Assembly: GCF_009909615.1 (NCBI RefSeq)
Contig: NZ_WWNE01000003.1
Span: forward strand, 1 to 64,000
Origin: Acidiluteibacter ferrifornacis
GTDB taxonomy: Bacteria; Bacteroidota; Bacteroidia; Flavobacteriales_E; Vicingaceae
DNA: 64,000 bases
Direction: 5' to 3'
Made by a program: the position numbers and the translations under genes. Every line of letters starts with the position of its first letter. Position 1 is the stretch's first letter. The notes under the pieces were generated by a model, which was given only the letters and a program-made list of their open reading frames with translations, did not search any database and had not been told where the DNA came from. Shown here in pieces: positions 7,574 to 29,329 of this stretch.

Positions 7574-7618
7574 CAAAGTTGCGACGAAGTGCAGGGGGAA
7601 GTCAGTAACCTTTGTTAC
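7574..7618 (-). promoter_or_regulatory. Crp/Fnr-type site plus -7 box of the TolC-RND operon (site A)
   Basis: The palindrome GTAACCTTTGTTAC covers 7605-7618. On the minus strand the -7 box CAACTTTG (consensus TAnnTTTG, one mismatch) covers 7581-7574, followed by a short leader to the ATG at 7557. Site centre to last base of the box is 37.5 bp, which would put the site near -42. The same arrangement recurs four more times in this window. Confidence 0.7.
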
Positions 7619-9691: not shown

Positions 9692-9735
9692 TAAAAGTAA
9701 GTGTTAAGTTAATCACAAAAAGTAACATTGGTTAC
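9692..9735 (-). promoter_or_regulatory. Crp/Fnr-type site plus -7 box of the cytochrome c/DUF3365 gene (site B)
   Basis: The palindrome GTAACATTGGTTAC covers 9722-9735. On the minus strand the -7 box TACTTTTA (consensus TAnnTTTG, last base differs) covers 9699-9692. Centre-to-box distance is 36.5 bp. The predicted transcription start near 9687 fits translation from 9667. Confidence 0.7.
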
Positions 9736-17021: not shown

Positions 17022-18440
17022 TTATAATAAAGTCGTTGGACAAACATAGTCTGTCGTTTTAATTCCTTCTTCTTTTATGGCTGCGAAACCTCCTTCTACG
17101 TCAATAAGGTTGTGAATCCCTCTGCTTTTTAAAATTGAAGCTGCAATCATACTTCTATAACCCCCTGCACAATGCAGATAAAAAGGCTCATCCGATGGAA
17201 ATTCTGCTAAGTGATTGTTTATAAAATCCAATGGTGTGTTGTTGGCAATTTCAATATGCTCTGATTGAAATTCACTTTCTTTTCTAACATCAAATATTGG
17301 ATAGTGATTTTCTTTAGAAATTGCTTCTTTTAGCTGAGATGGGGTGATAGTATCTACCGTATCATATTCTTTACCTGATTTCTTCCAAGCCACAAATCCA
17401 CCTTTCAAAAACCCTATAGCATTATCGAAACCAACGCGTGAAAGTCTTGTGATGGTTTCTTCCTCTCTACCTGAATCGGCAACTATTAATATGGGTTGTT
17501 TAGTATCTACAATCATAGCTCCTACCCACTGCGCAAAACTTCCATCGATTCCTATAAAAATAGATTTAGGAATATGTCCTTTTGCAAAATCTTGTTGTGA
17601 ACGAACATCCAATACCAAGGCTCCCGTCTCGTTTGCAGCCGCTTCAAAAGCTTCAGGAGATAATGGTCGTTCAGATTTTTTCATCACTTCATCCAGGCTC
17701 TCATATCCTTTGATGTTCATCAACACATTTTGTGGGAAATAACCTGGAGGTGGCACTAAACCTTCCAACAACTCTTTTTTAAACTCTTCTTTGGTCATAT
17801 CTGGACGTAACGCATAGTTCGTTTTCTTTTGGTTCCCCAAAGTATCAGTCGTTTCTTTACTCATATTTTTACCACAAGCAGAGCCCGCTCCGTGGTTCGG
17901 ATAAACAATCAAATCGTCGCTCAGAGGCATTATTTTATTTCGTAAAGAATCATATAAATGACCTGCCAATTTATCTTCTGTAAGGTCAGAAACTACATGC
18001 TGGGCCAAATCAGGACGACCAACATCGCCAATGAACAATGTATCTCCTGTGATTATTCCGTGCTCTTTTCCATTTTCATCGATGATTAAATAAGTCGAGC
18101 TTTCCATGGTATGACCCGGGGTGTGCAATACTTTTACGCGACATTTTCCAACGTTGAATATTTGTTCATCCTCAGCTACTATGGCTTCATATCCTGGCTT
18201 GGCTGATGGTCCAAAAACAATCTCTGCTCCAGTTTTCTTTTTCAAATCCAAATGTCCACTCACAAAATCAGCGTGAAAATGAGTTTCGAATACATATTTA
18301 ATCGACGCATTATTTTCTTTTGCTCTATCGATGTATGGTTGCACTTCTCTCAATGGATCAAAAATAGCTACTTCGCCATCGCTTTCTAAGTAGTATGCTG
18401 CGTGTGCTAGACATCCGGTATAAATTTGCTCTAATTTCAT
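17022..18440 (-). CDS. CstB-like persulfide dioxygenase / rhodanese fusion
   Basis: A 472-residue, apparently cytoplasmic enzyme in three parts. Residues 1-240 form a metallo-beta-lactamase-fold domain with HFHADFVSGH (H54, H56, D58), HTPGHT (H110) and GD (D133). By analogy with ETHE1, H54, H110 and D133 bind mononuclear iron of a persulfide dioxygenase. Residues 260-360 are a pseudo-rhodanese: V320 sits where the catalytic Cys belongs (VADSGR). Residues 365-470 are a rhodanese with active-site loop CAGGYR (C424). Staphylococcal CstB has this same order with an inactive middle domain and turns low-molecular-weight persulfides into thiosulfate. I infer the same role here. The Crp/Fnr-type site lies upstream and the TauE-like exporter gene just beyond. 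Confidence 0.82.
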   Translation of the reverse strand: MKLEQIYTGCLAHAAYYLESDGEVAIFDPLREVQPYIDRAKENNASIKYVFETHFHADFVSGHLDLKKKTGAEIVFGPSAKPGYEAIVAEDEQIFNVGKCRVKVLHTPGHTMESSTYLIIDENGKEHGIITGDTLFIGDVGRPDLAQHVVSDLTEDKLAGHLYDSLRNKIMPLSDDLIVYPNHGAGSACGKNMSKETTDTLGNQKKTNYALRPDMTKEEFKKELLEGLVPPPGYFPQNVLMNIKGYESLDEVMKKSERPLSPEAFEAAANETGALVLDVRSQQDFAKGHIPKSIFIGIDGSFAQWVGAMIVDTKQPILIVADSGREEETITRLSRVGFDNAIGFLKGGFVAWKKSGKEYDTVDTITPSQLKEAISKENHYPIFDVRKESEFQSEHIEIANNTPLDFINNHLAEFPSDEPFYLHCAGGYRSMIAASILKSRGIHNLIDVEGGFAAIKEEGIKTTDYVCPTTLL

Positions 18441-18476
18441 AGTATATGTTTTTCTGATTAATATCTAATTATACCA

Positions 18477-18520
18477 CAAAGTTAAACGACGTAAATATCA
18501 AAAAAAGTGACATTTGTTAC
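18477..18520 (-). promoter_or_regulatory. Crp/Fnr-type site plus -7 box of the CstB-like gene (site C)
   Basis: GTGACATTTGTTAC at 18507-18520 matches the palindrome with one base changed. The minus-strand -7 box TAACTTTG at 18484-18477 is a perfect TAnnTTTG. Centre-to-box distance is 36.5 bp. The start codon is at 18440. Confidence 0.72.
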
Positions 18521-18623
18521 ATTATGGCATTTTTTCCAACTATTAAAGATGAATCGAAAATAAAGAGAATTGCGACTAGCTTTCCCATCAAATTTATTCG
18601 AAAAAATAGTGATGATATTATTT

Positions 18624-18706
18624 GCGTTAGGGATAGAAACGGCATCCTTTTATGGAGTGAAACGAAATAAAAGATATAGTGAAAAGCCCGACCGAAGGTA
18701 ACGCCC
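18624..18706. repeat. Bacteroidota dispersed intergenic repeat (GCGTTAGGGAT ... AACGCCC)
   Basis: An 83-base block has the order GCGTTAGGGAT - CGGCATCCTTTTAT - AAAAGATATAGTG - AAAGCCCGACC - GAAGG - TAACGCCC. I recognise this succession of short conserved words from intergenic regions of many flavobacterial genomes, usually next to gene 3' ends. I know no name or function. Here it begins 10 bases after the TauE stop (reading leftward) and fills most of the gap to the CstB-like gene. It could form a hairpin through ACC-GAA-GGT. Confidence 0.6.
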
Positions 18707-18715
18707 AGAAAAAAA

Positions 18716-19513
18716 CTAGCCCAACTCTTTGATGATAATGTAAATCCCCATTACTAAAACGAACCACCCAAATCCCTTTTTGAGTTTTTTGCCATCAATA
18801 AATTGGTTGAGCCATATTCCTACAAAAATACCGACGATGGATAAGGAAGTAAAAACAGCCAAGAAACTCCAGTCTATTTCAAGGTTCTGCACATCGCCCA
18901 TAAATCCAATCAAAGATTTAATCGCGATGATAAGCAAGGACGTCGCCACGGCCTTTTTCATGGGCAAACGAGCCAAAAGCACCAAAGCTGGGATAATTAA
19001 AAATCCACCTCCTGCACCTACGATTCCTGTGACCATACCCACCAAAAGGCCTTCCACAATAATCAAGGGATAGTTATATTTGATTTCTTGTTCCTCATCT
19101 GTTTCTTTTCGTTTGTTTCGAATCATAGAAATAGATGCTAGTAACATAATAACGGCGAAGAAAATCATAATAGCGACGTTCTTCGATAAAACAACATCTC
19201 CGATTTGCGTAATTTGTTCGGGAATGGCTGGAATCAAGTATTTTCTGCTGATATAAACCGATATAAAGGCTGGAATTGCAAAAACTATGGCTGTTCTAAA
19301 ATCAACCAACCCTTTCTGCATATTTCTGATAGCCCCCACTAAAGACGCCGAACCGACTACAAAAAGTGAATATGCAGTAGCCAAGACGGGATTTACCCCC
19401 AATAAATATACGAGAACAGGTACTGTAAGTATAGAGCCTCCGCCGCCTATTAAACCCAATACCAAACCTATAAGTAATGCGCCTAAGTATCCAAAAAATG
19501 TTAATCCGTCCAT
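18716..19513 (-). CDS. TauE/SafE-family sulfite/sulfonate exporter-like permease
   Basis: A 265-residue membrane protein with about eight helices in two repeated halves. Each half starts with a glycine-rich signature: GLIGGGGSILTVPVLVYLLG near 20-39 and GIVGAGGGFLIIPALVLL near 163-180. That pair defines the TauE/SafE family, which moves sulfite, sulfoacetate or other sulfur anions. TauE-like genes occur in the staphylococcal cst operon together with CstB, and here it lies beside the CstB-like gene. I infer export of sulfite or thiosulfate made from persulfides. It follows the Crp/Fnr gene after 62 bases with its own perfect regulatory site. Confidence 0.85.
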   Translation of the reverse strand: MDGLTFFGYLGALLIGLVLGLIGGGGSILTVPVLVYLLGVNPVLATAYSLFVVGSASLVGAIRNMQKGLVDFRTAIVFAIPAFISVYISRKYLIPAIPEQITQIGDVVLSKNVAIMIFFAVIMLLASISMIRNKRKETDEEQEIKYNYPLIIVEGLLVGMVTGIVGAGGGFLIIPALVLLARLPMKKAVATSLLIIAIKSLIGFMGDVQNLEIDWSFLAVFTSLSIVGIFVGIWLNQFIDGKKLKKGFGWFVLVMGIYIIIKELG

Positions 19514-19530
19514 GTATAAATAATATGCTT

Positions 19531-19574
19531 CAAAGCTAGTGCTTTATCCGAAACCTAAAGGTAACAGCTGTTAC
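19531..19574 (-). promoter_or_regulatory. Crp/Fnr-type site plus -7 box of the TauE gene (site D)
   Basis: GTAACAGCTGTTAC at 19561-19574 is a perfect 14-bp palindrome. The minus-strand -7 box TAGCTTTG at 19538-19531 is a perfect TAnnTTTG. Centre-to-box distance is 36.5 bp. The site begins right after the stop of the Crp/Fnr gene, so TauE has its own promoter in addition to any readthrough. Confidence 0.75.
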
Positions 19575-19575
19575 A

Positions 19576-20211
19576 TTAATCGATATTCTTTACTTTGATA
19601 TGATTACGATGCAACTCAATTTTTCCCATATTCTCAAGAGTTTTTAATAGGCGAGAAATGACAACACGTGAGGTATGAAGGTCATAAGCAATTTGTTGGT
19701 GAGTCGAATGAATGGTATTATCATTAGAAATACGCACTTTTTCTTTTAAATAGGCTAATAGTCGCTCATCCATTTTCTTGAAAGCTATTCGATCAATTGT
19801 TTCTAACATTTCATTTAACCGATTGTGGTAGCTCGCAAATACAAAATCACGCCAAGTACTATATTTTGCAATCCATTCGCTCATTTTCTGAACAGGAATC
19901 ATAATCAAAGTGGTATCCAATTCTGCGACTGCCCTAATTTCACTTTTGGTCATCCCCATGCAGCATTGCATCGTCATGGCACAAGTTTCTCCTCGCTCTA
20001 AAAAATAAAGTAACAATTCATCGCCTTCCTCATCTTCCCGCAAAATTTTCACAGCACCAGAAACGAGTAAGGGCATCGATTTTACATAATCTCCAATCTC
20101 TATTAGATAGCCACCCTCAGCTACTTCTTTATATGTTCCTACTTGATTAATCTCTTGCAATAACGCCTCTTCAAATAAATGCCCGTAATTCTCTCGTAGT
20201 ACTTCAATCAT
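19576..20211 (-). CDS. Crp/Fnr-family transcriptional regulator
   Basis: A 211-residue regulator. The N-terminal cyclic-nucleotide-type beta barrel spans about 12-115, a dimerisation helix 125-145, and the C-terminal helix-turn-helix 165-195 (HQQIAYDLHTSRVVISRLLK, recognition helix about 179-190). The barrel carries three Cys (C77, C83, C84; GETCAMTMQCC) where cAMP-binding members have the phosphate cassette, and I see no FNR-type N-terminal Cys cluster. It is thus unlikely to bind cAMP in the E. coli CRP manner; thiol-based sensing is possible. It is the only Crp/Fnr gene in the window, surrounded by five identical-type sites, and is the best candidate for their ligand. Site E lies 77 bases before its start, in the divergent promoter region. 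Confidence 0.9.
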   Translation of the reverse strand: MIEVLRENYGHLFEEALLQEINQVGTYKEVAEGGYLIEIGDYVKSMPLLVSGAVKILREDEEGDELLLYFLERGETCAMTMQCCMGMTKSEIRAVAELDTTLIMIPVQKMSEWIAKYSTWRDFVFASYHNRLNEMLETIDRIAFKKMDERLLAYLKEKVRISNDNTIHSTHQQIAYDLHTSRVVISRLLKTLENMGKIELHRNHIKVKNID

Positions 20212-20287: not shown

Positions 20288-20330
20288 GTAACTTTTGATA
20301 CAATAAATATTATTAAAAAGATTAACTTTA
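20288..20330 (+). promoter_or_regulatory. Crp/Fnr-type site plus -7 box of the metal-efflux operon (site E)
   Basis: GTAACTTTTGATAC at 20288-20301 matches the palindrome with one change in the right half. The + strand -7 box TAACTTTA at 20323-20330 differs from TAnnTTTG only in the last base. Centre-to-box distance is 35.5 bp. It lies in the 128-base divergent region between the Crp/Fnr gene and the His-rich protein gene and could serve both. Confidence 0.65.
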
Positions 20331-20339
20331 TACCCCAAA

Positions 20340-20738
20340 ATGAAAAGAATACTGCCATTTATATTATCCATGATTATACTTTTTCAAAGTATGAATGTGT
20401 CTGCTAAAGACATTATTCAGATGGATGAATTTATTGAGCATGCCCAATTTCATTATGAGGAATATGGAGACGACCTATTCGCATTTATCTCTAAACACTA
20501 TGGTGACCAAAAAGAAGAACACCAAAAAAATCAACAACACGAGAAATCGCAACACGAGCAACTTCCATTCAACCATAACTTAGGGTCTCATACCTCTACT
20601 ATTTTCCTAGCTGATTTTATTGAGAACGAGAACCTTTCAACTCCGTTCGCTCAAATTTTATCTCCTAATTTTTTCTACTTGCTTCCGGCTATTTCTGCAG
20701 CCGCTGCTGATATTTTTCAGCCCCCTAAGATAGCATAA
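20340..20738 (+). CDS. Secreted His-rich protein preceding the CusA-type pump
   Basis: A 132-residue protein with a cleavable signal peptide (cleavage near NVSA, residue 22). A hydrophilic stretch rich in His, Glu and Gln follows (about 55-85; spaced HxxxxxxHEKSQHEQ and NHNLGSH), then a C-terminal region with moderate hydrophobicity. The His-rich part looks suited to binding divalent metal in the periplasm. No family recognised. First gene of the rightward operon, 88 bases before the pump gene. Its predicted leader is very short (about 5 bases after the inferred transcription start). Confidence 0.65.
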   Translation: MKRILPFILSMIILFQSMNVSAKDIIQMDEFIEHAQFHYEEYGDDLFAFISKHYGDQKEEHQKNQQHEKSQHEQLPFNHNLGSHTSTIFLADFIENENLSTPFAQILSPNFFYLLPAISAAAADIFQPPKIA

Positions 20739-20826: not shown

Positions 20827-23800
20827 ATGCTTTCTAGAATAATTCAATTTAGCCTAGCTAATAAGCTAATCATCTTTTTGTTTACCACAGCAATAGCTGT
20901 AGTTGGACTTTTTTCTATCAGCCAAATTCCTTTTGGTGTGGTGCCAGACATTACCAATAATCAAGTGCAGGTAATTACCACTAGCACCAGTTTATCTACA
21001 CAAGACATTGAGCAGTTTATCACTTATCCTGTAGAGTTAGAAATGTCGAACCTACCAGGAGTAAAGGAAATTCGTTCTGTATCCAAGTTCGGACTTTCAG
21101 TGGTAACCGTAGTTTTTGAAGACGATATGGGAACATATTTGCCTCGTCAATTATTAGCGGAGAAAATAAACGCTGCCGCAGAAAAGATTCCACAAGAGTT
21201 TGGACGCCCGGAAATGGGACCTATCACCACAGGGTTGGGAGAAATTTATCAATACATCATTGATGTAAAACCAGGATTTGAAGACCGCTACACCTTAATG
21301 GAATTGCGAACCATCCAAGATTGGATTGTTCGCCGACAGTTATCAGGAATACCAGGAGTAGTGGAAGTAAATAGCTGGGGCGGACTATTGAAACAATATG
21401 AAGTAGCCATAAAATCAGAACAGCTAGCTGCAAAGAAAATCACCATTACCCAAGTAATGGATGCACTTGAAAACAACAATAGTGTGGCCGGTGGCGGTTA
21501 CATTGAAAAAGCAAATCAATCGTACTTTATTCGTGGAGATGGTTTGGTGAGCAATCTTGAAGACATCGAAAATATCGTAGTAGAAAACAGAAATGGAACA
21601 CCTATTTTTATTCGCGACATCGCAAAAGTGGGTTTCGGTAGTGCCAACCGTTTTGGTGCAACTACAGCCAATGGACAAGGCGAAAAAGTGTTGGGACAGG
21701 TGATGATGCTGAAAGATGCCAACTCCAACAAAGTGATCAATGCTGTACAAAAAAGAGTAGAAGAGATTCAGTCGACTTTACCAGAAGGGGTGTTCATCAA
21801 TGGCTTTTTAGATAGAAGTACATTGATTGACAAAACAACATTTACCATCGGGGAGAACCTCATTTTGGGTTGCTTGATTGTAATTTTTGTAGTGGTTTTA
21901 TTGCTTGGAAACATTCGATCAGGATTAGTAGTCGCTTCTGTAATTCCATTGAGTTTGCTTTTCGCGATTTCACTGATGAATATCTTTGGTGTGGATGCCA
22001 ACTTAATGAGTTTAGGAGCTATTGATTTCGGAATCATCATAGACGGTGCCGTAATTATTGTTGAGTTTATTGCTTTTCAAATGACCAAAAGTGTAAACAA
22101 ACTGAACGGATTGTCCAAAGAAGAGTTGCAAACCGAGAAAGATGCGATTACCTTAATGAGTGCCAATAAAATGATGAGCTCGGCAGTATTCGGACAGATT
22201 ATTATTCTAATAGTATTTATTCCTATTTTTTCATTGGCCGGCGTTGAAGGCAAAATGTTTCAGCCAATGGCGCTGACTTTTAGCTTTGCACTCATTGGCA
22301 CAATGGTTCTTTGTTTCACCTATGTTCCAGCCATATCTTCAATTCTGATAAAACCAGATGTTGTAGATAAGCCCAATTTTTCCAAACGATTGAACAATTG
22401 GCTGGCTAACCAATATGAGCATTTTTTAACTCGAGCACTTTCTCACAAAAAAGCCATTCTAACCGTTGCTTCAGCTTTGTTAATTGGATCAGTAATACTC
22501 TTCAATTCTATGGGTGGAGAGTTTGTACCTACATTAGACGAAGGCGACTTTGTGATACAACCGGTTTTAAAAACAGGAACATCCTTGAGTAGTACCATCG
22601 CAACGACCACTAAAATTGAGCAAATTCTAATCGATAAATTCCCTGAAGTGGATCAAATTGTGACGAGAATAGGTGCGGCAGAAGTCCCTACCGACCCTAT
22701 GTCAATGGAGGAAAGCGATGTCATGATCACCTTGAAACCTAAAAGCGAGTGGACTTCGGCAAAATCTAAAGATGAATTGGCCGATTTATTCAAAGAAGCA
22801 TTAACGATCATTCCTGGTTTGGAAGTAGAATTTACTCAGCCAATTGAGATGCGATTTAATGAACTGATCACTGGAGTTCGAGCTGACATTGCCATTAAAA
22901 TTGTGGGCGAAGACTTGGAATTTCTTAGTCAGAAAGCAAATGAAATCAAAACACTCATCAGCAATGTAGAAGGAGCCGCAGACATTACGGTAGAAAAAAT
23001 AACTGGGTTGCCACAAATGAGTATTGATTACAAACGCGATAAAATTGCGAGATATGGTTTATCTATTGCTGCTATTAATCAAGTTGTTTCTATGGCTTTT
23101 GGAGGCCAATCATTAGGCAGTGTTTTCGAAGGCGAAAAACGTTTCGATTTGGTATTGCGATTGGACCAGTCAAAAAGAACTGACATTGATGACGTACAAA
23201 ACCTGTATGTAGATCTTCCTAATGGTGGAAAAATTCCACTGAGTGAGGTCGCTGAAATTAGCTACAAAAAAGGTGCTGCAAAAATTTCTAGAGACGATAC
23301 GAAGAGAAGAACAGTTGTTGGAATTAATGTTAGAAACCGAGACTTACAATCAGTGGTAGATGATGTACAAAAACTAATTACTGAAAATGTGAAACTTCCT
23401 GTTGGCTACACCATCACTTATGGAGGACAGTTTGAGAACTTAACGTCTGCCAAGAATCGATTATTAATCGCAGTTCCTATTGCTTTGATACTCATCTTTA
23501 TCTTCTTGTTTTTTGCTTTCAAATCGGTAAAAGATGCATTGATTATTTACTCTGCTATTCCGTTATCAGCAGTAGGTGGAATTTTATTGCTTTGGATTCG
23601 AGACATGCCATTTAGCATTTCTGCAGGCGTTGGATTTATTGCACTTTTTGGAATCGCAGTCCTCAATGGAATTGTAATGATCGAGCATTTTAAAGAACTC
23701 CAAAAAGAAGGCGAATTATCTAACAAGGATATTATCATTTTAGGATCTAAGGATCGACTAAGAGCTGTGTTATTAACTGCCTCAGCTGCTGCTTTGGGAT

Positions 23801-25149
23801 TTTTACCCATGGCTATTTCTACTAATGCCGGAGCAGAAGTTCAACGACCATTAGCAACTGTAGTAGTAGGTGGTTTGATTTCTGCTACTTTACTGACTTT
23901 AATCGTCTTGCCCATTTTATATTCCATATTTAAAGCTAAATCAACCAAAACTATGAAAAATGGAACCCTTACTTTATTAGTCGCTCTATTAATAGGTGCT
24001 TCGTCTGCTACAGCACAGGAAAACACCTATAACATCGCACAGCTAGAACAATTGATGTTGGAGCACAACAGCCAATTAAAAGCTGGATCGTATAGAATGG
24101 AAGAAAAAAATGCTCAAATAAATGGTGCCTTTCAGTTTGAAAAAACAGAAATCTATTACGGTTATGATCAGAATAATTTAGCAGTAAATAATTTACCACT
24201 TGACGTGATTGGTGTACAACAAAACTTTGCCTTTCCTACCATATATGCAGCAGAGCGCAAAGCAAATAAAGCCAATTTACAGTTAGAAAAAAGCGCTTAT
24301 GCAATTCAACAGAATCAATTGAAGAAAGAATTATGGAGCAGTTACTATCAGTATCAATTTGAAATTAATCAACTACAAGTCATTGAAAACTTAGATAGTT
24401 TATATCAAAATTTTTCACAATTGGCCAATCGACGGTTTGAACTTGGCGAAACCACTTACTTGGAAAAAGCTACAGCTCAGTCCAAACAACGCCAAGTAAA
24501 CACCTTATTTGAACAAGCAAAAGAAGATGTAAAAAGTGCTAAAACACAGCTTATAAATATTGTTCAGGCTCCTGATTCATTTCGTATCAAAAAGGAGCAG
24601 TTAACTGCGCTTCAACCACAAATTAGCTCCATAGAGGATAATGTAACCAATCAATATTTCGAGGATAAATCAGCTGTTCTTTACCAACAGAATACATTGG
24701 TCAAACAACAGCTACTCCCCGATATCACAGTCAACTATTTTCAAGGCAAAAATAGTGGGTTGAATGAATCACTTTATGGATACCAATTGGGATTGAAAAT
24801 TCCATTGTTATTTACAGGACAACAGGCCAAAATAAAAGCATCCCAATTAGCATTTCAGGCCACAGAACAAGAAGCGATTGATTATCAATTTCAACTAAAA
24901 TCAAAATACAATCAATTGATTCATCAATTGGCTAAATACCAAGAAGCCATCGATTATTACCAATCTGAAGGCAATGCACTTGCAACAGAAATTACCAAAG
25001 CAGCTGAAATCAGTTACAAAACTGGTGAAATTGATTTTTTTCAATACATACAAAGTATAGAAAATGCCTATCAAATCAAATTAACCTTTTTAGAAAACCT
25101 GAATAACTACAACCAAACCGCTATCGCAATCAGTTATTTAACGCTATAA
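20827..25149 (+). CDS. CusA/CzcA-family heavy-metal RND pump fused to a TolC-like channel
   Basis: A 1440-residue protein. Residues 1 to about 1040 are a complete HME-type RND permease: first helix 12-30, TM4 with the acidic residues D400 and D406 (AIDFGIIIDGAV), second half from about 540, last helices to about 1035. The MRFNELITG segment (from M675) looks more like CzcA/CnrA-type divalent-metal pumps than E. coli CusA. From M1043 a second hydrophobic signal-like stretch ends in ATAQ, followed by a TolC-type outer-membrane protein (about 1065-1440). This fusion is known in Bacteroidota; the internal signal suggests cleavage into two proteins after export. Fusion-protein gene 10 bases downstream. 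Confidence 0.9.
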   Translation: MLSRIIQFSLANKLIIFLFTTAIAVVGLFSISQIPFGVVPDITNNQVQVITTSTSLSTQDIEQFITYPVELEMSNLPGVKEIRSVSKFGLSVVTVVFEDDMGTYLPRQLLAEKINAAAEKIPQEFGRPEMGPITTGLGEIYQYIIDVKPGFEDRYTLMELRTIQDWIVRRQLSGIPGVVEVNSWGGLLKQYEVAIKSEQLAAKKITITQVMDALENNNSVAGGGYIEKANQSYFIRGDGLVSNLEDIENIVVENRNGTPIFIRDIAKVGFGSANRFGATTANGQGEKVLGQVMMLKDANSNKVINAVQKRVEEIQSTLPEGVFINGFLDRSTLIDKTTFTIGENLILGCLIVIFVVVLLLGNIRSGLVVASVIPLSLLFAISLMNIFGVDANLMSLGAIDFGIIIDGAVIIVEFIAFQMTKSVNKLNGLSKEELQTEKDAITLMSANKMMSSAVFGQIIILIVFIPIFSLAGVEGKMFQPMALTFSFALIGTMVLCFTYVPAISSILIKPDVVDKPNFSKRLNNWLANQYEHFLTRALSHKKAILTVASALLIGSVILFNSMGGEFVPTLDEGDFVIQPVLKTGTSLSSTIATTTKIEQILIDKFPEVDQIVTRIGAAEVPTDPMSMEESDVMITLKPKSEWTSAKSKDELADLFKEALTIIPGLEVEFTQPIEMRFNELITGVRADIAIKIVGEDLEFLSQKANEIKTLISNVEGAADITVEKITGLPQMSIDYKRDKIARYGLSIAAINQVVSMAFGGQSLGSVFEGEKRFDLVLRLDQSKRTDIDDVQNLYVDLPNGGKIPLSEVAEISYKKGAAKISRDDTKRRTVVGINVRNRDLQSVVDDVQKLITENVKLPVGYTITYGGQFENLTSAKNRLLIAVPIALILIFIFLFFAFKSVKDALIIYSAIPLSAVGGILLLWIRDMPFSISAGVGFIALFGIAVLNGIVMIEHFKELQKEGELSNKDIIILGSKDRLRAVLLTASAAALGFLPMAISTNAGAEVQRPLATVVVGGLISATLLTLIVLPILYSIFKAKSTKTMKNGTLTLLVALLIGASSATAQENTYNIAQLEQLMLEHNSQLKAGSYRMEEKNAQINGAFQFEKTEIYYGYDQNNLAVNNLPLDVIGVQQNFAFPTIYAAERKANKANLQLEKSAYAIQQNQLKKELWSSYYQYQFEINQLQVIENLDSLYQNFSQLANRRFELGETTYLEKATAQSKQRQVNTLFEQAKEDVKSAKTQLINIVQAPDSFRIKKEQLTALQPQISSIEDNVTNQYFEDKSAVLYQQNTLVKQQLLPDITVNYFQGKNSGLNESLYGYQLGLKIPLLFTGQQAKIKASQLAFQATEQEAIDYQFQLKSKYNQLIHQLAKYQEAIDYYQSEGNALATEITKAAEISYKTGEIDFFQYIQSIENAYQIKLTFLENLNNYNQTAIAISYLTL

Positions 25150-25159
25150 TCTTACACAC

Positions 25160-26296
25160 ATGAAACAATATATATCGCTCACTGCCCTTTTTATTTGCAT
25201 AACATTTTTAACCGCATGTAATTCTTCAACAGGTGAATCAACTTCTGAAGACACAAGTGAAGAATCCACTGAAATAGTGGTCACCAAAGCTCAATTTGAC
25301 TACAACCAAATGGAATTGGGAAAACTAGAAATGCAATCGTTTGCTACCACTGTGCAAACAACCGGAACCATAGATGTGCCGCCACAGAATAAAGTAATTG
25401 TAAATGCTAAGATGGGTGGTTTCGTTCAATCTACTCCACTCCTATTGGGAAATTATGTTGAGAAGGGAGCTACATTAGTCATTATAGAAAACCCTGAATT
25501 CATAAAGATTCAGCAGCAATACCTAGAGCACAAACAACAATTATCTTATTTAGAATCCGAATACAATCGTCAAAAGACATTGAATACAGAGCAAATCAGT
25601 TCTGAAAAGAACTTTTTAAAAGCAGAAAGTGATTACAAAAGCACTTTGGCCACTGTGAAAGGGTTGGAAAAAACATTGGGACTAATTGGAATTTCTACTG
25701 CATCACTGACCGAGGACAACATCAGCTCTTCCGCTCGAATAACTGCACCCATCAGTGGAACCATTTCAGCATTAAATATCACCACAGGAAGTTATGTTTC
25801 AGCTACTGACCCTATTTTGGAAATCACAAACTCTGATCACATGCATTTGGAGCTTGAGGTATTTGAAAAAGATGCGTTAAAAATCAAAAAAGGGCAACAC
25901 CTTTCTTTCACGATTCCTGAAAGTGGAAATACAGCATTTCCTGCAGAAGTTCATTTGGTGTCTAATACCATTGATGCCAATAAACGAACAGTAAGAGTTC
26001 ATGCACATATCAATGACAGCCTGCATCAATTATTTGCGGTGGGAATGTATGTCAATGCCCAAATCCATATTGTAGAAAAGGAGGCATTAGCTTTACCCGC
26101 TTCGGCGGTCACTGAAGTAAACGATCATTATTATGTATTGGAGTTAATCAACAAAAATGAAGATCAATTTACCTTCAAGAAAACCGAAGTTAAAGTTATA
26201 GAGTCTAACGCTACCTACACATTCATTCAACTAGAGCAAAATGAAAATCAATATTTAATTGATGGTGCTTATTCCATCATAAAAGACAAAGAATAA
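25160..26296 (+). CDS. CusB/CzcB-type periplasmic adaptor lipoprotein
   Basis: A 378-residue membrane-fusion protein with a signal and lipobox C20 (FLTAC). An acidic Ser/Thr/Glu-rich stretch follows (21-40), then the first lipoyl half (NAKMGGFVQ), helical hairpin (about 105-160), second lipoyl half (ITAPISGTISALNI), barrel domain and C-terminal part. It lacks an obvious Met-rich N-terminal metal site as in E. coli CusB. It sits between the RND/TolC fusion gene and the thioredoxin gene, with short gaps of 10 and 15 bases. Confidence 0.88.
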   Translation: MKQYISLTALFICITFLTACNSSTGESTSEDTSEESTEIVVTKAQFDYNQMELGKLEMQSFATTVQTTGTIDVPPQNKVIVNAKMGGFVQSTPLLLGNYVEKGATLVIIENPEFIKIQQQYLEHKQQLSYLESEYNRQKTLNTEQISSEKNFLKAESDYKSTLATVKGLEKTLGLIGISTASLTEDNISSSARITAPISGTISALNITTGSYVSATDPILEITNSDHMHLELEVFEKDALKIKKGQHLSFTIPESGNTAFPAEVHLVSNTIDANKRTVRVHAHINDSLHQLFAVGMYVNAQIHIVEKEALALPASAVTEVNDHYYVLELINKNEDQFTFKKTEVKVIESNATYTFIQLEQNENQYLIDGAYSIIKDKE

Positions 26297-26311: not shown

Positions 26312-26755
26312 ATGAAAACACTCACAACATTAATCGTATTACTATGCCTAATTGGTGGAGTAAATGCACAAGACTGGAATACCGATTTCGAAAAAGCGAA
26401 ATCGATTGCAAAAGCAGAAAACAAACCTATAATTCTAGTTTTTCAGGGATCAGATTGGTGCGCTCCATGCATCAAGCTAGACAAAGAAATATGGAGCTCA
26501 GAAACCTTCAAAGCCTATGCTAAAAAACATTACGTAATGGTAAAAGCCGACTTTCCACGGAGAAAGGCAAATGCCTTATCTGAGGATGTGCAGAAGCAAA
26601 ACAACCAACTTGCTGAAAAATACAACCTCAACGGATATTTCCCTTTTGTTGTGATCATAGATGCAAGCGGGAAAAAAGTGGGAGAAACCGGTTATAAAAA
26701 AATAACTCCTCAGGAATATATCGAGCTAATCAATCAATTCACGTCAAGAAAATGA
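26312..26755 (+). CDS. Secreted thioredoxin-family protein
   Basis: A 147-residue protein with signal peptide (cleavage near VNAQ, residue 20) and a thioredoxin fold whose active site is WCAPC (C50, C53). It belongs to the Thioredoxin_7-like/DUF255-like type (FQGSDWCAPC, KLDKEIW) and not classical thioredoxin (WCGPC). The cis-Pro loop is likely FPFVVIID. I infer a periplasmic thiol reductase or disulfide exchanger. Its stop overlaps the ApbE start (ATGA), so the two are translationally coupled. The Cys-containing DUF4266 peptide two genes on is an attractive client. Confidence 0.87.
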   Translation: MKTLTTLIVLLCLIGGVNAQDWNTDFEKAKSIAKAENKPIILVFQGSDWCAPCIKLDKEIWSSETFKAYAKKHYVMVKADFPRRKANALSEDVQKQNNQLAEKYNLNGYFPFVVIIDASGKKVGETGYKKITPQEYIELINQFTSRK

Positions 26756-27732
26756 AACCTATTCTATTCATCTGCACATTTTTTGTGTTTCAAGCAGTCA
26801 ATGCTGAAAGCACTTTTAAGCGGACATTAAAATTAATGGGTAGTCGATTTGAAATTACTGTAATTGCTGAAAATACAAAATTAGGCGACCAATACATTGA
26901 AGAAGCGGTAGCAGAAATTACTCGAATTGAACGATTAATTTCTTCTTGGAACCCAGAATCACAAACAAGTGAAATCAATCGGCAAGCTGGGATAATGCCT
27001 GTTAAAGTAGATCTTGAATTGTATCAACTTATTGAGCGTGCAAATGGTATCTCCAACTTGACAGATGGCGCTTTTGATATTAGCTATGCCTCCATGGACC
27101 GCATTTGGAAATTCGACGGAAGCATGACAATAATCCCATCTGCAGAAGAAATTAAACATTCTGTCTCAAAAGTTGGATACCAAAAAATAAAACTCAATGC
27201 ATCGGATACGACGGTATTTTTAACTGAAAAAGGAATGAAAATTGGCTTTGGGGCTATCGGAAAAGGGTATGCCGCCGATAAAGCAAAAGCACTTTTGATA
27301 GAGAAAGGAGTAAAAGGCGGAATCATCAATGCTTCGGGAGATATGAATACTTGGGGAAAACAAACCAATGGAGAAGATTGGAAAGTAGCCATTACCAATC
27401 CATTAAATAAAGATAAAGCAATAGCAATATTTCCGCTAAACAATAGTGCAGTAGTTACTTCTGGAGATTATGAAAAGTACATCAAACTAGAAGGAAAGAA
27501 ATTCGCCCACATTATCGACCCTCGAACAGGATATCCTACTTCAGGAATTATTAGTGCTACAGTTTTTGCCCCAAAAGCTGAATTAGCTGATGCATTAGCC
27601 ACTTCTATTTTTGTAATGGGAGTTAATGCCGGCATTGATCGAATAAATCAACTACCAAATATTGAATGCATTATTATCAACGACGAAGGTAAAATTTTCA
27701 CTTCCACTAACATAAAAATTAAAAACAAATGA
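26752..27732 (+). CDS. apbE: FAD:protein FMN transferase (ApbE)
   Basis: A 326-residue exported ApbE enzyme, which covalently attaches FMN from FAD to Ser/Thr of target proteins. A signal peptide (to about VNA, residue 18) without lipobox Cys is followed by the catalytic domain: GSRFEITV (30-37), GAIGKGYAAD (167-176), ASGDMNTWG (194-202), HIIDPRTGYP (253-262) and ADALATSIFVMG (279-290), in the expected family order with acidic residues for Mg. None of the window's proteins carries a clear ApbE target motif (DxxTGAT type). Start overlaps the thioredoxin stop and its stop overlaps the DUF4266 start (ATGA both times). Confidence 0.92.
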   Translation: MKPILFICTFFVFQAVNAESTFKRTLKLMGSRFEITVIAENTKLGDQYIEEAVAEITRIERLISSWNPESQTSEINRQAGIMPVKVDLELYQLIERANGISNLTDGAFDISYASMDRIWKFDGSMTIIPSAEEIKHSVSKVGYQKIKLNASDTTVFLTEKGMKIGFGAIGKGYAADKAKALLIEKGVKGGIINASGDMNTWGKQTNGEDWKVAITNPLNKDKAIAIFPLNNSAVVTSGDYEKYIKLEGKKFAHIIDPRTGYPTSGIISATVFAPKAELADALATSIFVMGVNAGIDRINQLPNIECIIINDEGKIFTSTNIKIKNK

Positions 27733-27941
27733 AAAAACATTGGTTAGGACTCATTATAGCAATCGCATTATTAAGCAGTTGTACTGTAGTAAAGGAATAT
27801 GAGAAAGTCAACTTAAACGATCCAGACATGGCATTAACAACCAAAAAGTCGGATCGATTTGAAACAAATTTCCAGTCCTACAGAGAAGCTGCTACTGGTG
27901 CAAACGGTGGCAAAACTGGTGGAGGATGCGGTTGCAATTAA
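27729..27941 (+). CDS. DUF4266 small Gly/Cys-tailed lipoprotein
   Basis: A 70-residue lipoprotein: signal with lipobox C18 (LLSSC), a short conserved segment (MALTTKKSDRFETNFQSYRE) and a glycine-rich tail ending GGGCGCN. Length, DxxMAL motif and C-terminal CxCN match DUF4266, whose function is unknown. The mature part is only about 53 residues, tethered by lipid, with two Cys at the extreme C-terminus. Genes of this family regularly lie with ApbE, a thioredoxin and a DUF3570 protein, exactly as here. The TGAN of the tail weakly resembles an ApbE acceptor motif. Metal binding, or modification of the Cys tail, are possible roles; neither is shown by the sequence. Confidence 0.85.
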   Translation: MKKHWLGLIIAIALLSSCTVVKEYEKVNLNDPDMALTTKKSDRFETNFQSYREAATGANGGKTGGGCGCN

Positions 27942-27952
27942 AAATAAAAATC

Positions 27953-29275
27953 ATGAAAAATATACTATTCATCTTCACCTTATTCTTGAGCTTTACCCTT
28001 TTTGCTCAAGACCCTCCTCAAGCCGATTCTTTAGTCGTTTATAAAAAACGAGTATTGGAAACCACTGAATTAGATTTCTTGATGAGTTATTACACCCAAG
28101 ATGGTAAAAATGCGGCTGTTTCCGGTGGTATCGGCACCGAAGAATTACAAGATATCACACCCACAATTATAGTATCTATGCCGCTGAATGATGACGATGT
28201 GCTGACTGTAGACGCAGGAATCTCTGCCTATACATCCGCTTCTTCTAGTAACATTAATCCGTTTGATTCCAAGAATCCTGATGCATTTCAAGCTTCAACA
28301 GGTGCCTCAAGTGGAGATGTATGGGCAAATGTTGTCCTCTCATATTCACACAGCAGCGATGATCGGAATAAAATCTATTCAGGAAAGCTCTCAGTAGCCT
28401 CGGAGTATGACTATTTCTCAGTAGGTTTAGGTGGAACATATACTCAACTATTTAATCAAAAGAATACAGAGTTAAGCTTAAGCGGCAACGTATACATTGA
28501 TAAATGGAACGCCATCTACCCATATGAATTAAGACCATTCGACTCAGGAGGTCCAGGATTAAATAGCAGCTTATTTCTTGTAAATCAGATCTCAGGAAAT
28601 GTCAATTATGCACCAGACTTTAAAGCCTTTGATAGCGAAAATAGAAACTCATATTCTTTCGGTGCGAGTTTTTCCCAGATTCTGTCCAAACGCCTTCAAG
28701 GATTAATTGTCACTGATGTAGTTTACCAGAGTGGATTATTGTCCACTCCCTTTCAGCGTGTTTACTTTGCTGATGTTGCCAATAGTTACATCGATGGCTT
28801 TCAACTCGCCGACAACAATGAACAATTACCTGATCAACGTTTCAAATTAGCCATTGGTGGTCGATTAAACTATTATGTTAATGAACGAATTGTACTTCGA
28901 TCATTTTATAGATATTATAGAGATGATTGGGGAATAAATTCACATACTACGAGCTTGGAAGTGCCTGTCAAAATCAGTCAAAAATTTACACTTTACCCTT
29001 CTTATCGTTATTACTTCCAAAGTTCAGCCGATTATTTTGCTGGATATGAACAACACCTTTCAACAGAAAAATACTATACATCAGATTATGATTTATCCGA
29101 ATACAATGCTAATCAGTATGGCTTCGGAATTGAATACACTGATATTCTCACTTCAAAAAAGATTGGAAAACTTGCGTTAAAATCTATTCATTTAAAATAC
29201 AATTATTACGAGCGGAACTCCGGTTTTAAAGCCAACTTAATTGCAGGAGGAGTAAAGTTTATTATTGATAAATAA
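27953..29275 (+). CDS. DUF3570 outer-membrane beta-barrel-like protein
   Basis: A 440-residue protein from the ATG at 27953; an upstream in-frame ATG at 27926 overlaps the DUF4266 gene and would put nine basic residues before the signal peptide. Signal peptide (cleavage near FAQD), conserved N-terminal block with YKKRVLETTELDFLMSYYTQDGKNAAVSGGIGTE-type sequence, then many alternating amphipathic strands rich in Tyr/Ser/Asn, ending KFIIDK. This matches DUF3570, a presumed outer-membrane barrel of unknown role linked to DUF4266. Last gene of the operon, followed by a terminator. Confidence 0.85.
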   Translation: MKNILFIFTLFLSFTLFAQDPPQADSLVVYKKRVLETTELDFLMSYYTQDGKNAAVSGGIGTEELQDITPTIIVSMPLNDDDVLTVDAGISAYTSASSSNINPFDSKNPDAFQASTGASSGDVWANVVLSYSHSSDDRNKIYSGKLSVASEYDYFSVGLGGTYTQLFNQKNTELSLSGNVYIDKWNAIYPYELRPFDSGGPGLNSSLFLVNQISGNVNYAPDFKAFDSENRNSYSFGASFSQILSKRLQGLIVTDVVYQSGLLSTPFQRVYFADVANSYIDGFQLADNNEQLPDQRFKLAIGGRLNYYVNERIVLRSFYRYYRDDWGINSHTTSLEVPVKISQKFTLYPSYRYYFQSSADYFAGYEQHLSTEKYYTSDYDLSEYNANQYGFGIEYTDILTSKKIGKLALKSIHLKYNYYERNSGFKANLIAGGVKFIIDK

Positions 29276-29293: not shown

Positions 29294-29329
29294 AATAGAA
29301 TCCTAAAAAAGTACTTTTAGGATTCTATT
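29294..29329 (+). terminator. Terminator after the DUF3570 gene
   Basis: A perfect 15-bp stem (29294-29308 with 29315-29329) with a 6-base loop starts 18 bases after the stop. It is followed by ATTAAGATT, so the U-tract is weak, but stem quality and position support termination of the rightward metal-efflux operon before acs. Confidence 0.7.

Follow-up and report, generated by a model that had tools for sequence, protein, structure and literature searches.

The window, a stretch of 64,000 nucleotides at the start of contig NZ_WWNE01000003.1 of Acidiluteibacter ferrifornacis, carries a four-gene cassette that by Pfam encodes Thioredoxin_7 (Trx7), ApbE, DUF4266 and DUF3570, placed behind the genes of a metal pump. 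The features of the locus are, by position in the window:

19576-20211, minus strand: Crp/Fnr-type regulator, divergent, with the Cys-rich stretch TCAMTMQCC
20288-20301, no strand assigned: candidate operator GTAACTTTTGATAC, one mismatch to GTAACNNNNGTTAC, before the leader
20340-20738, plus strand: leader, a small exported His/Asp-rich protein with no Pfam or NCBIfam family
20827-25149, plus strand: HME-RND pump of the CzcA type that carries a fused outer-membrane efflux (OEP) domain, with the TM4 motif DFGIIIDGAVIIVE shared by ZneA
25160-26296, plus strand: CzcB/HlyD-type periplasmic adaptor lipoprotein
26312-26755, plus strand: Trx7, exported, DsbH-like, W-C50-A-P-C53 (PF13899, E 7.7e-17)
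26752-27732, plus strand: ApbE, an exported FAD:protein FMN transferase (PF02424 over the full length, E 5.6e-85)
27729-27941, plus strand: DUF4266 lipoprotein, invariant C-terminal C67-G-C69 (PF14086, E 1.7e-21, 1-50/50)
27953-29275, plus strand: DUF3570, modelled 16-strand outer-membrane barrel with two predicted FMN-serine sites (PF12094, E 4.6e-36)
28241-28243, plus strand: codon of S97 in TSAS, the first predicted FMN site, a Ser that does not vary among 98 homologues
28307-28309, plus strand: codon of S119 (TGAS), predicted FMN site 2, matching the [S/T]GA[S/T] core
29294-29329, plus strand: operon-end hairpin, 15 perfect pairs, z -5.2

The trx and apbE genes overlap in an ATGA at 26752-26755, and apbE and the DUF4266 gene in another at 27729-27732. 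An earlier sequence-only reading had described four coupled genes with two such overlaps, and both overlaps and all four Pfam families are verified here. The DUF3570 gene has its better start at ATG 27953, 11 nt past the DUF4266 gene, where the signal peptide MKNILFIFTLFLSFTLFAQ begins, and a start at 27926 was dropped for that reason. Upstream, 15 nt separate the end of CzcB from trx. Because of this gene spacing and the 15-bp perfect hairpin 3' of DUF3570, the series leader-CzcA-CzcB-trx-apbE-DUF4266-DUF3570 reads as a single operon, and the earlier placement of the cassette within the pump operon holds. A promoter scan gave chance-level sites only.

The pump matches TIGR00914 with 1153 bits against a cut-off of 701, and the TM4 motif DFG...DGA..VE is present. 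Since ZneA, a zinc pump, is closer in alignment than CusA, and the TM4 motif DFGII.DGA is common to ZneA, the protein is likely an HME-RND pump of the ZneA/CzcA type with a divalent metal as its substrate. The upstream pump and adaptor genes resemble the CzcCBA/ZneCBA efflux systems; in contrast to these, the outer-membrane factor is fused to the pump, a small leader gene stands before it, and a flavinyl cassette follows.

DUF3570, the sole Pfam family of the last cassette protein, was modelled by AlphaFold2 from 71 sequences as a barrel, with a mean pLDDT of 88.6 and a pTM of 0.83. VIA-align matched it to 16-strand barrels from end to end, namely a BamA model (Z 21.6), PgaA (Z 21.0, rmsd 3.5 over 257 aligned residues) and PelB (Z 20.9). 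On this model the protein is a 16-strand outer-membrane barrel with a signal peptide, which gives substance to its earlier description as barrel-like, and the fold shared with PgaA, PelB and BamA shows no function. A search of solved structures gave no match for DUF4266 and one marginal, non-barrel match for DUF3570 (E 0.057). In the model the N-terminus is periplasmic, and residues 94-122, the loop that follows strand 3 and contains S97 and S119, lie on the extracellular side; that placement follows from strand parity, pLDDT falls below 50 in parts of the loop, and the loop could instead fold into the lumen.

The two serines of this loop are the predicted FMN sites. Across 98 sequences, site 1 reads [T/S][S/A/T]AS with Ala-Ser invariant and an Asp at -6 in 65, and it fits the ApbE motif D-x-x-[S/T]-G-A-[S/T] save for Gly, which is replaced by Ser or Ala (by Ser here, TSAS). 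In other ApbE substrates, replacing this Gly lowers flavinylation without abolishing it, to about 50% when the change is to Ala. Site 2 is [S/T]GAS throughout the clade of the window. In Chlorobium luteolum, ApbE puts FMN on two [S/T]GA[S/T] serines of DUF3570, as shown by Meheust et al. 2021 (PMC8238504). In the DUF4266 alignment, no Ser or Thr is invariant, and at the one position that might serve several homologues have Val or Ala, so that FMN on DUF4266 as a general feature was ruled out. From the homologue precedent and the conserved serines, together with this lack in DUF4266, DUF3570 (S97 and S119) is the predicted FMN carrier. The sequence-only reading had cast DUF4266 as the modified or loaded partner, and for this no support was found: the published target of ApbE is DUF3570, and both serines are kept in the present protein.

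DUF4266 is 70 aa long, with the lipobox LSSC18 and 53 mature residues ending in GGGCGCN, just as the letters had first been read. Its C-terminus follows the pattern YRE..(S/T)GANGGKTGGGCGCN, in which CGC (C67-G-C69) is invariant in the alignment. Trx7 is likewise the exported WCAPC thiol protein that had been described, with W-C50-A-P-C53 in a Thioredoxin_7 domain; among NCBIfam models it scores best with that of the disulfide reductase DsbH, below the cut-off, and the best match among solved structures is a thioredoxin disulfide isomerase. In Erv2 and its relatives, electrons pass between a thioredoxin-fold protein and a flavin by way of a mobile C-terminal CXC. The envelope thiol and flavin system that had been proposed is supported.

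The gene set itself has been described before. In Meheust et al. 2021 (PMC8238504), the ApbE-DUF3570-Thioredoxin_7-DUF4266 set appears among the 'DsbD systems': the clusters that include DsbD hold 227 DUF3570, 183 Thioredoxin_7 and 221 DUF4266 genes, and another 316 are DsbD-less; redox cycling of the DUF4266 CXC is proposed there, and VIT1 is tied to 25 flavinylation clusters. The present cassette has the same four families, a C-terminal CXC in DUF4266 and a DUF3570 with two predicted serine FMN sites, of which S119 matches [S/T]GA[S/T] and S97 has Ser for Gly, but differs from the 'DsbD systems' in the strict sense: the genome has one full-length DsbD gene, on another contig and unlinked to the cassette, and DsbD thus lies outside the cluster, as in those 316. 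The passages of PMC8238504 consulted gave no CzcAB operon and no shared leader, and within the searchable literature no other paper names DUF3570 or DUF4266. In the accessible part of a 2024 survey of flavinylated folds, DUF3570 is not among the modelled folds, and a literature search for CzcA together with ApbE found nothing. The cassette is a known kind of flavinyl relay, and the metal-efflux setting is the part for which no published description was found. The earlier statement that the function is not established is true of the function; the cluster and its flavinylated subunit, on the other hand, are already in print in PMC8238504.

The recurrence of the gene set in other genomes, which had been stated in the earlier reading, is borne out. 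Among 100 related loci, gathered by similarity to the DUF4266 of the window, so that percentages are not population values, and with ORF-based gene calls, all 100 have DUF3570, 99 have DUF4266, 94 have ApbE and 84 have Trx7, and several of the absences are contig ends. The genes are thus found mostly together rather than apart, the latter being the outcome that had been named as fatal to the earlier idea. Across 100 genomes, that of the window among them, DUF4266 and DUF3570 occur in the same 20, one of which has two copies of each, an agreement beyond chance.

The link to metal efflux runs through the leader, an exported protein of 132 aa, His/Asp-rich with the pattern HY...LPF...QPPK, which matches no family in Pfam or NCBIfam. 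Close relatives occur in 15 of the 100 genomes, in all 15 directly 5' of CzcA-CzcB. Of 25 copies of a related leader type placed in one genus, 15 stand before CzcA, 7 before the cassette and 3 next to a cation P-type ATPase; the profile of this type also matches two leaders of the window type (E 5e-6 and 4e-5). The cassette has a leader before it with no pump in L052, L066, L070, L077, L106 and L110, and some genomes hold leader-CzcA-OEP-CzcB followed by leader-Trx7-ApbE-DUF4266-DUF3570. The leader represents an undescribed family of small exported proteins that precede CzcAB, the cassette or a cation P-type ATPase; members lie at 20340-20738 of the window, L110:7155-7553, L077:8008-8421 and L058:1118-1519.

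CzcA, CzcB and the cassette stand on one strand in five other loci (L058, L060, L062, L072 and L073), and a pump is beside the cassette in about 7 of the 100 related loci. In 12 of the 100, VIT1 lies no more than 4.5 kb away on the same strand, and in none does it lie beyond 6 kb. In L060, L062 and L073, near-identical CzcAB-cassette-VIT1 operons occur in Flavobacteriaceae PS02338, Olivibacter and Empedobacter brevis, and this occurrence in different genera suggests a recent horizontal transfer of the operon. The sister species (G001) shares Crp, leader, CzcA and CzcB with the window and has no cassette. Right behind its CzcB stop (L144), a remnant of about 62 nt corresponds to the 3' end of DUF3570, SRNSGFTANLIAGGIKFVID-stop; its alignment score is 83, and the highest of 500 shuffles scored 50. 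The cassette was lost in the sister species, and the linkage of pump and cassette therefore predates the species split. Pump and cassette are separable, given the roughly 7 of 100 loci with a pump and the sister pump that persists without the cassette.

Regulation was approached through the palindrome GTAACNNNNGTTAC. With at most one mismatch it has 6 matches in the window against 1.06 expected, a number reached in 0 of 100 shuffles. Six perfect copies occur in the 3.5 Mb genome, three inside ORFs elsewhere and three at promoters in the window, those of an RND operon (7605-7618), a haem protein (9722-9735) and TauE/SafE (19561-19574); a copy with one mismatch lies before an MBL-rhodanese gene (18507-18520). 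This clustering and the candidate operator at 20288-20301 agree, at sequence level, with the Crp/Fnr-type site that had been placed over the operon. The sister species has candidate operators at the leader promoter, near-identical and in the same place, and at the TauE promoter, and it keeps the Crp/Fnr-type regulator beside leader-CzcAB. GTAACNNNNGTTAC would most obviously be read by the divergent Crp/Fnr-type protein. An alternative operator, TTGA-N4-8-TCAA, gave 20 matches against 19 expected and none in the leader promoter, and GTAACNNNNGTTAC was adopted instead. Since an MBL-fold/rhodanese protein and a TauE/SafE-like exporter (17022-19513) adjoin the regulator, their presence suggests a sulfur-stress input.

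We propose that ApbE would place FMN on S97 and S119 of the DUF3570 barrel, that the single DsbD of the cell probably reduces Trx7, and that Trx7 would pass the electrons on to DUF4266, at the Cys-Gly-Cys near the C-terminus of this lipoprotein. The Gly-rich tail of DUF4266 would serve as a detached shuttle dithiol that reduces the FMNs of DUF3570; with the FMN loop either extracellular or luminal, the electrons would exit at or beyond the outer membrane. Co-transcription with CzcAB would tie production of the relay to the metal or thiol-stress signal that governs the pump. FMN on DUF3570 is published for a homologue, and the gene set, conserved sites, predicted barrel and operon and regulon links come from the present analysis; from these we infer the order DsbD, Trx7, CGC and FMN, the direction, the acceptor and a benefit for metal handling. 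This explanation as a whole, an ApbE-DUF3570-Trx7-DUF4266 relay embedded in a divalent-metal efflux regulon, appears to us reasonably probable. Its more ambitious form is offered tentatively, as possible and short of probable: a haem-free outer-membrane conduit, from DsbD thiol electrons through thioredoxin and a CGC lipoprotein to a two-FMN barrel, working in a Bacteroidota metal-efflux response that is marked by a new leader family. If true, electrons would have a novel haem-less route across the outer membrane, a flavin barrel driven by thiols. The proposed conduit resembles those of the MtrCAB type in that an outer-membrane barrel is proposed to pass electrons outward, but with FMN and thiols instead of haems and a barrel that is not of the MtrB family; no CxxCH haem motif occurs in the four cassette translations. 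Hundreds of flavinyl clusters are on record with no role assigned, and the metal-efflux operon with its shared leader and operator supplies a condition for testing, namely divalent-metal or sulfur stress.

The direction of this relay is not fixed by sequence, and it could run in reverse as a periplasmic sulfhydryl oxidase, in which Trx7 or client thiols would reduce CGC and FMN-DUF3570 would re-oxidise it toward an external acceptor, making disulfides or shielding thiols from soft metals. The nearest functional precedent for a mobile CXC beside a flavin is in fact an oxidase, Erv2/QSOX, which shares with the cassette a thioredoxin-fold partner, a mobile CXC shuttle and a flavin. This is an analogy and not membership: the cassette would have covalent FMN on a barrel, a separate lipoprotein as its shuttle and probably the opposite direction, and no Erv/ALR FAD domain was matched by Pfam in its four proteins. 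We consider the reversed flow unlikely, however, in view of the reductase and isomerase matches of Trx7 (that to DsbH below the cut-off), the DsbD encoded in the genome and the 227 published clusters with DsbD, an electron donor (PMC8238504).

A different reading makes DUF4266 the product: its CGC, held in the reduced state by Trx7, would bind or receive a metal or be modified, and DUF4266, partnered by DUF3570, would act as a metal chaperone for efflux. CXC motifs can bind soft metals, and the metal-efflux linkage, the shared leader and the VIT1 and HMA neighbours point the same way. Yet most cassettes have no adjacent pump, the sister species keeps its pump without DUF4266, DUF4266 lacks an invariant Ser or Thr, and the proven ApbE target (PMC8238504) is DUF3570, so we give this reading little credence. 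The operon placement might also be incidental, a mobile cassette having inserted behind CzcB with no relation to metals. The patchy distribution (20 of 100 relatives), the near-identical operons in unrelated genera, which suggest transfer, and the loss in the sister species would fit such an event, which is nevertheless improbable when the same leader precedes the cassette without an intervening pump in loci of several families and the VIT1 neighbours are all on one strand.

In the plasmid collection, DUF4266 matches occur in Hymenobacter only, Vibrio has DUF3570 matches without annotation, and the DUF3570 of the Hymenobacter sp. DG25B plasmid (L127:6854-8106) is annotated as two ORFs and possibly disrupted. 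Trx7 and ApbE form single open frames at L042:7737-9158 and L123:7030-8532, which may be real fusions or a single-base indel at the ATGA overlap. The second ApbE of the present genome is a lipoprotein gene with no NQR cluster visible around it. A Rieske-like exported protein stands directly 5' of the cassette at L041:8993-9493 and L042:7224-7733, and L041 has this protein without Trx7, hinting at a swapped electron partner.
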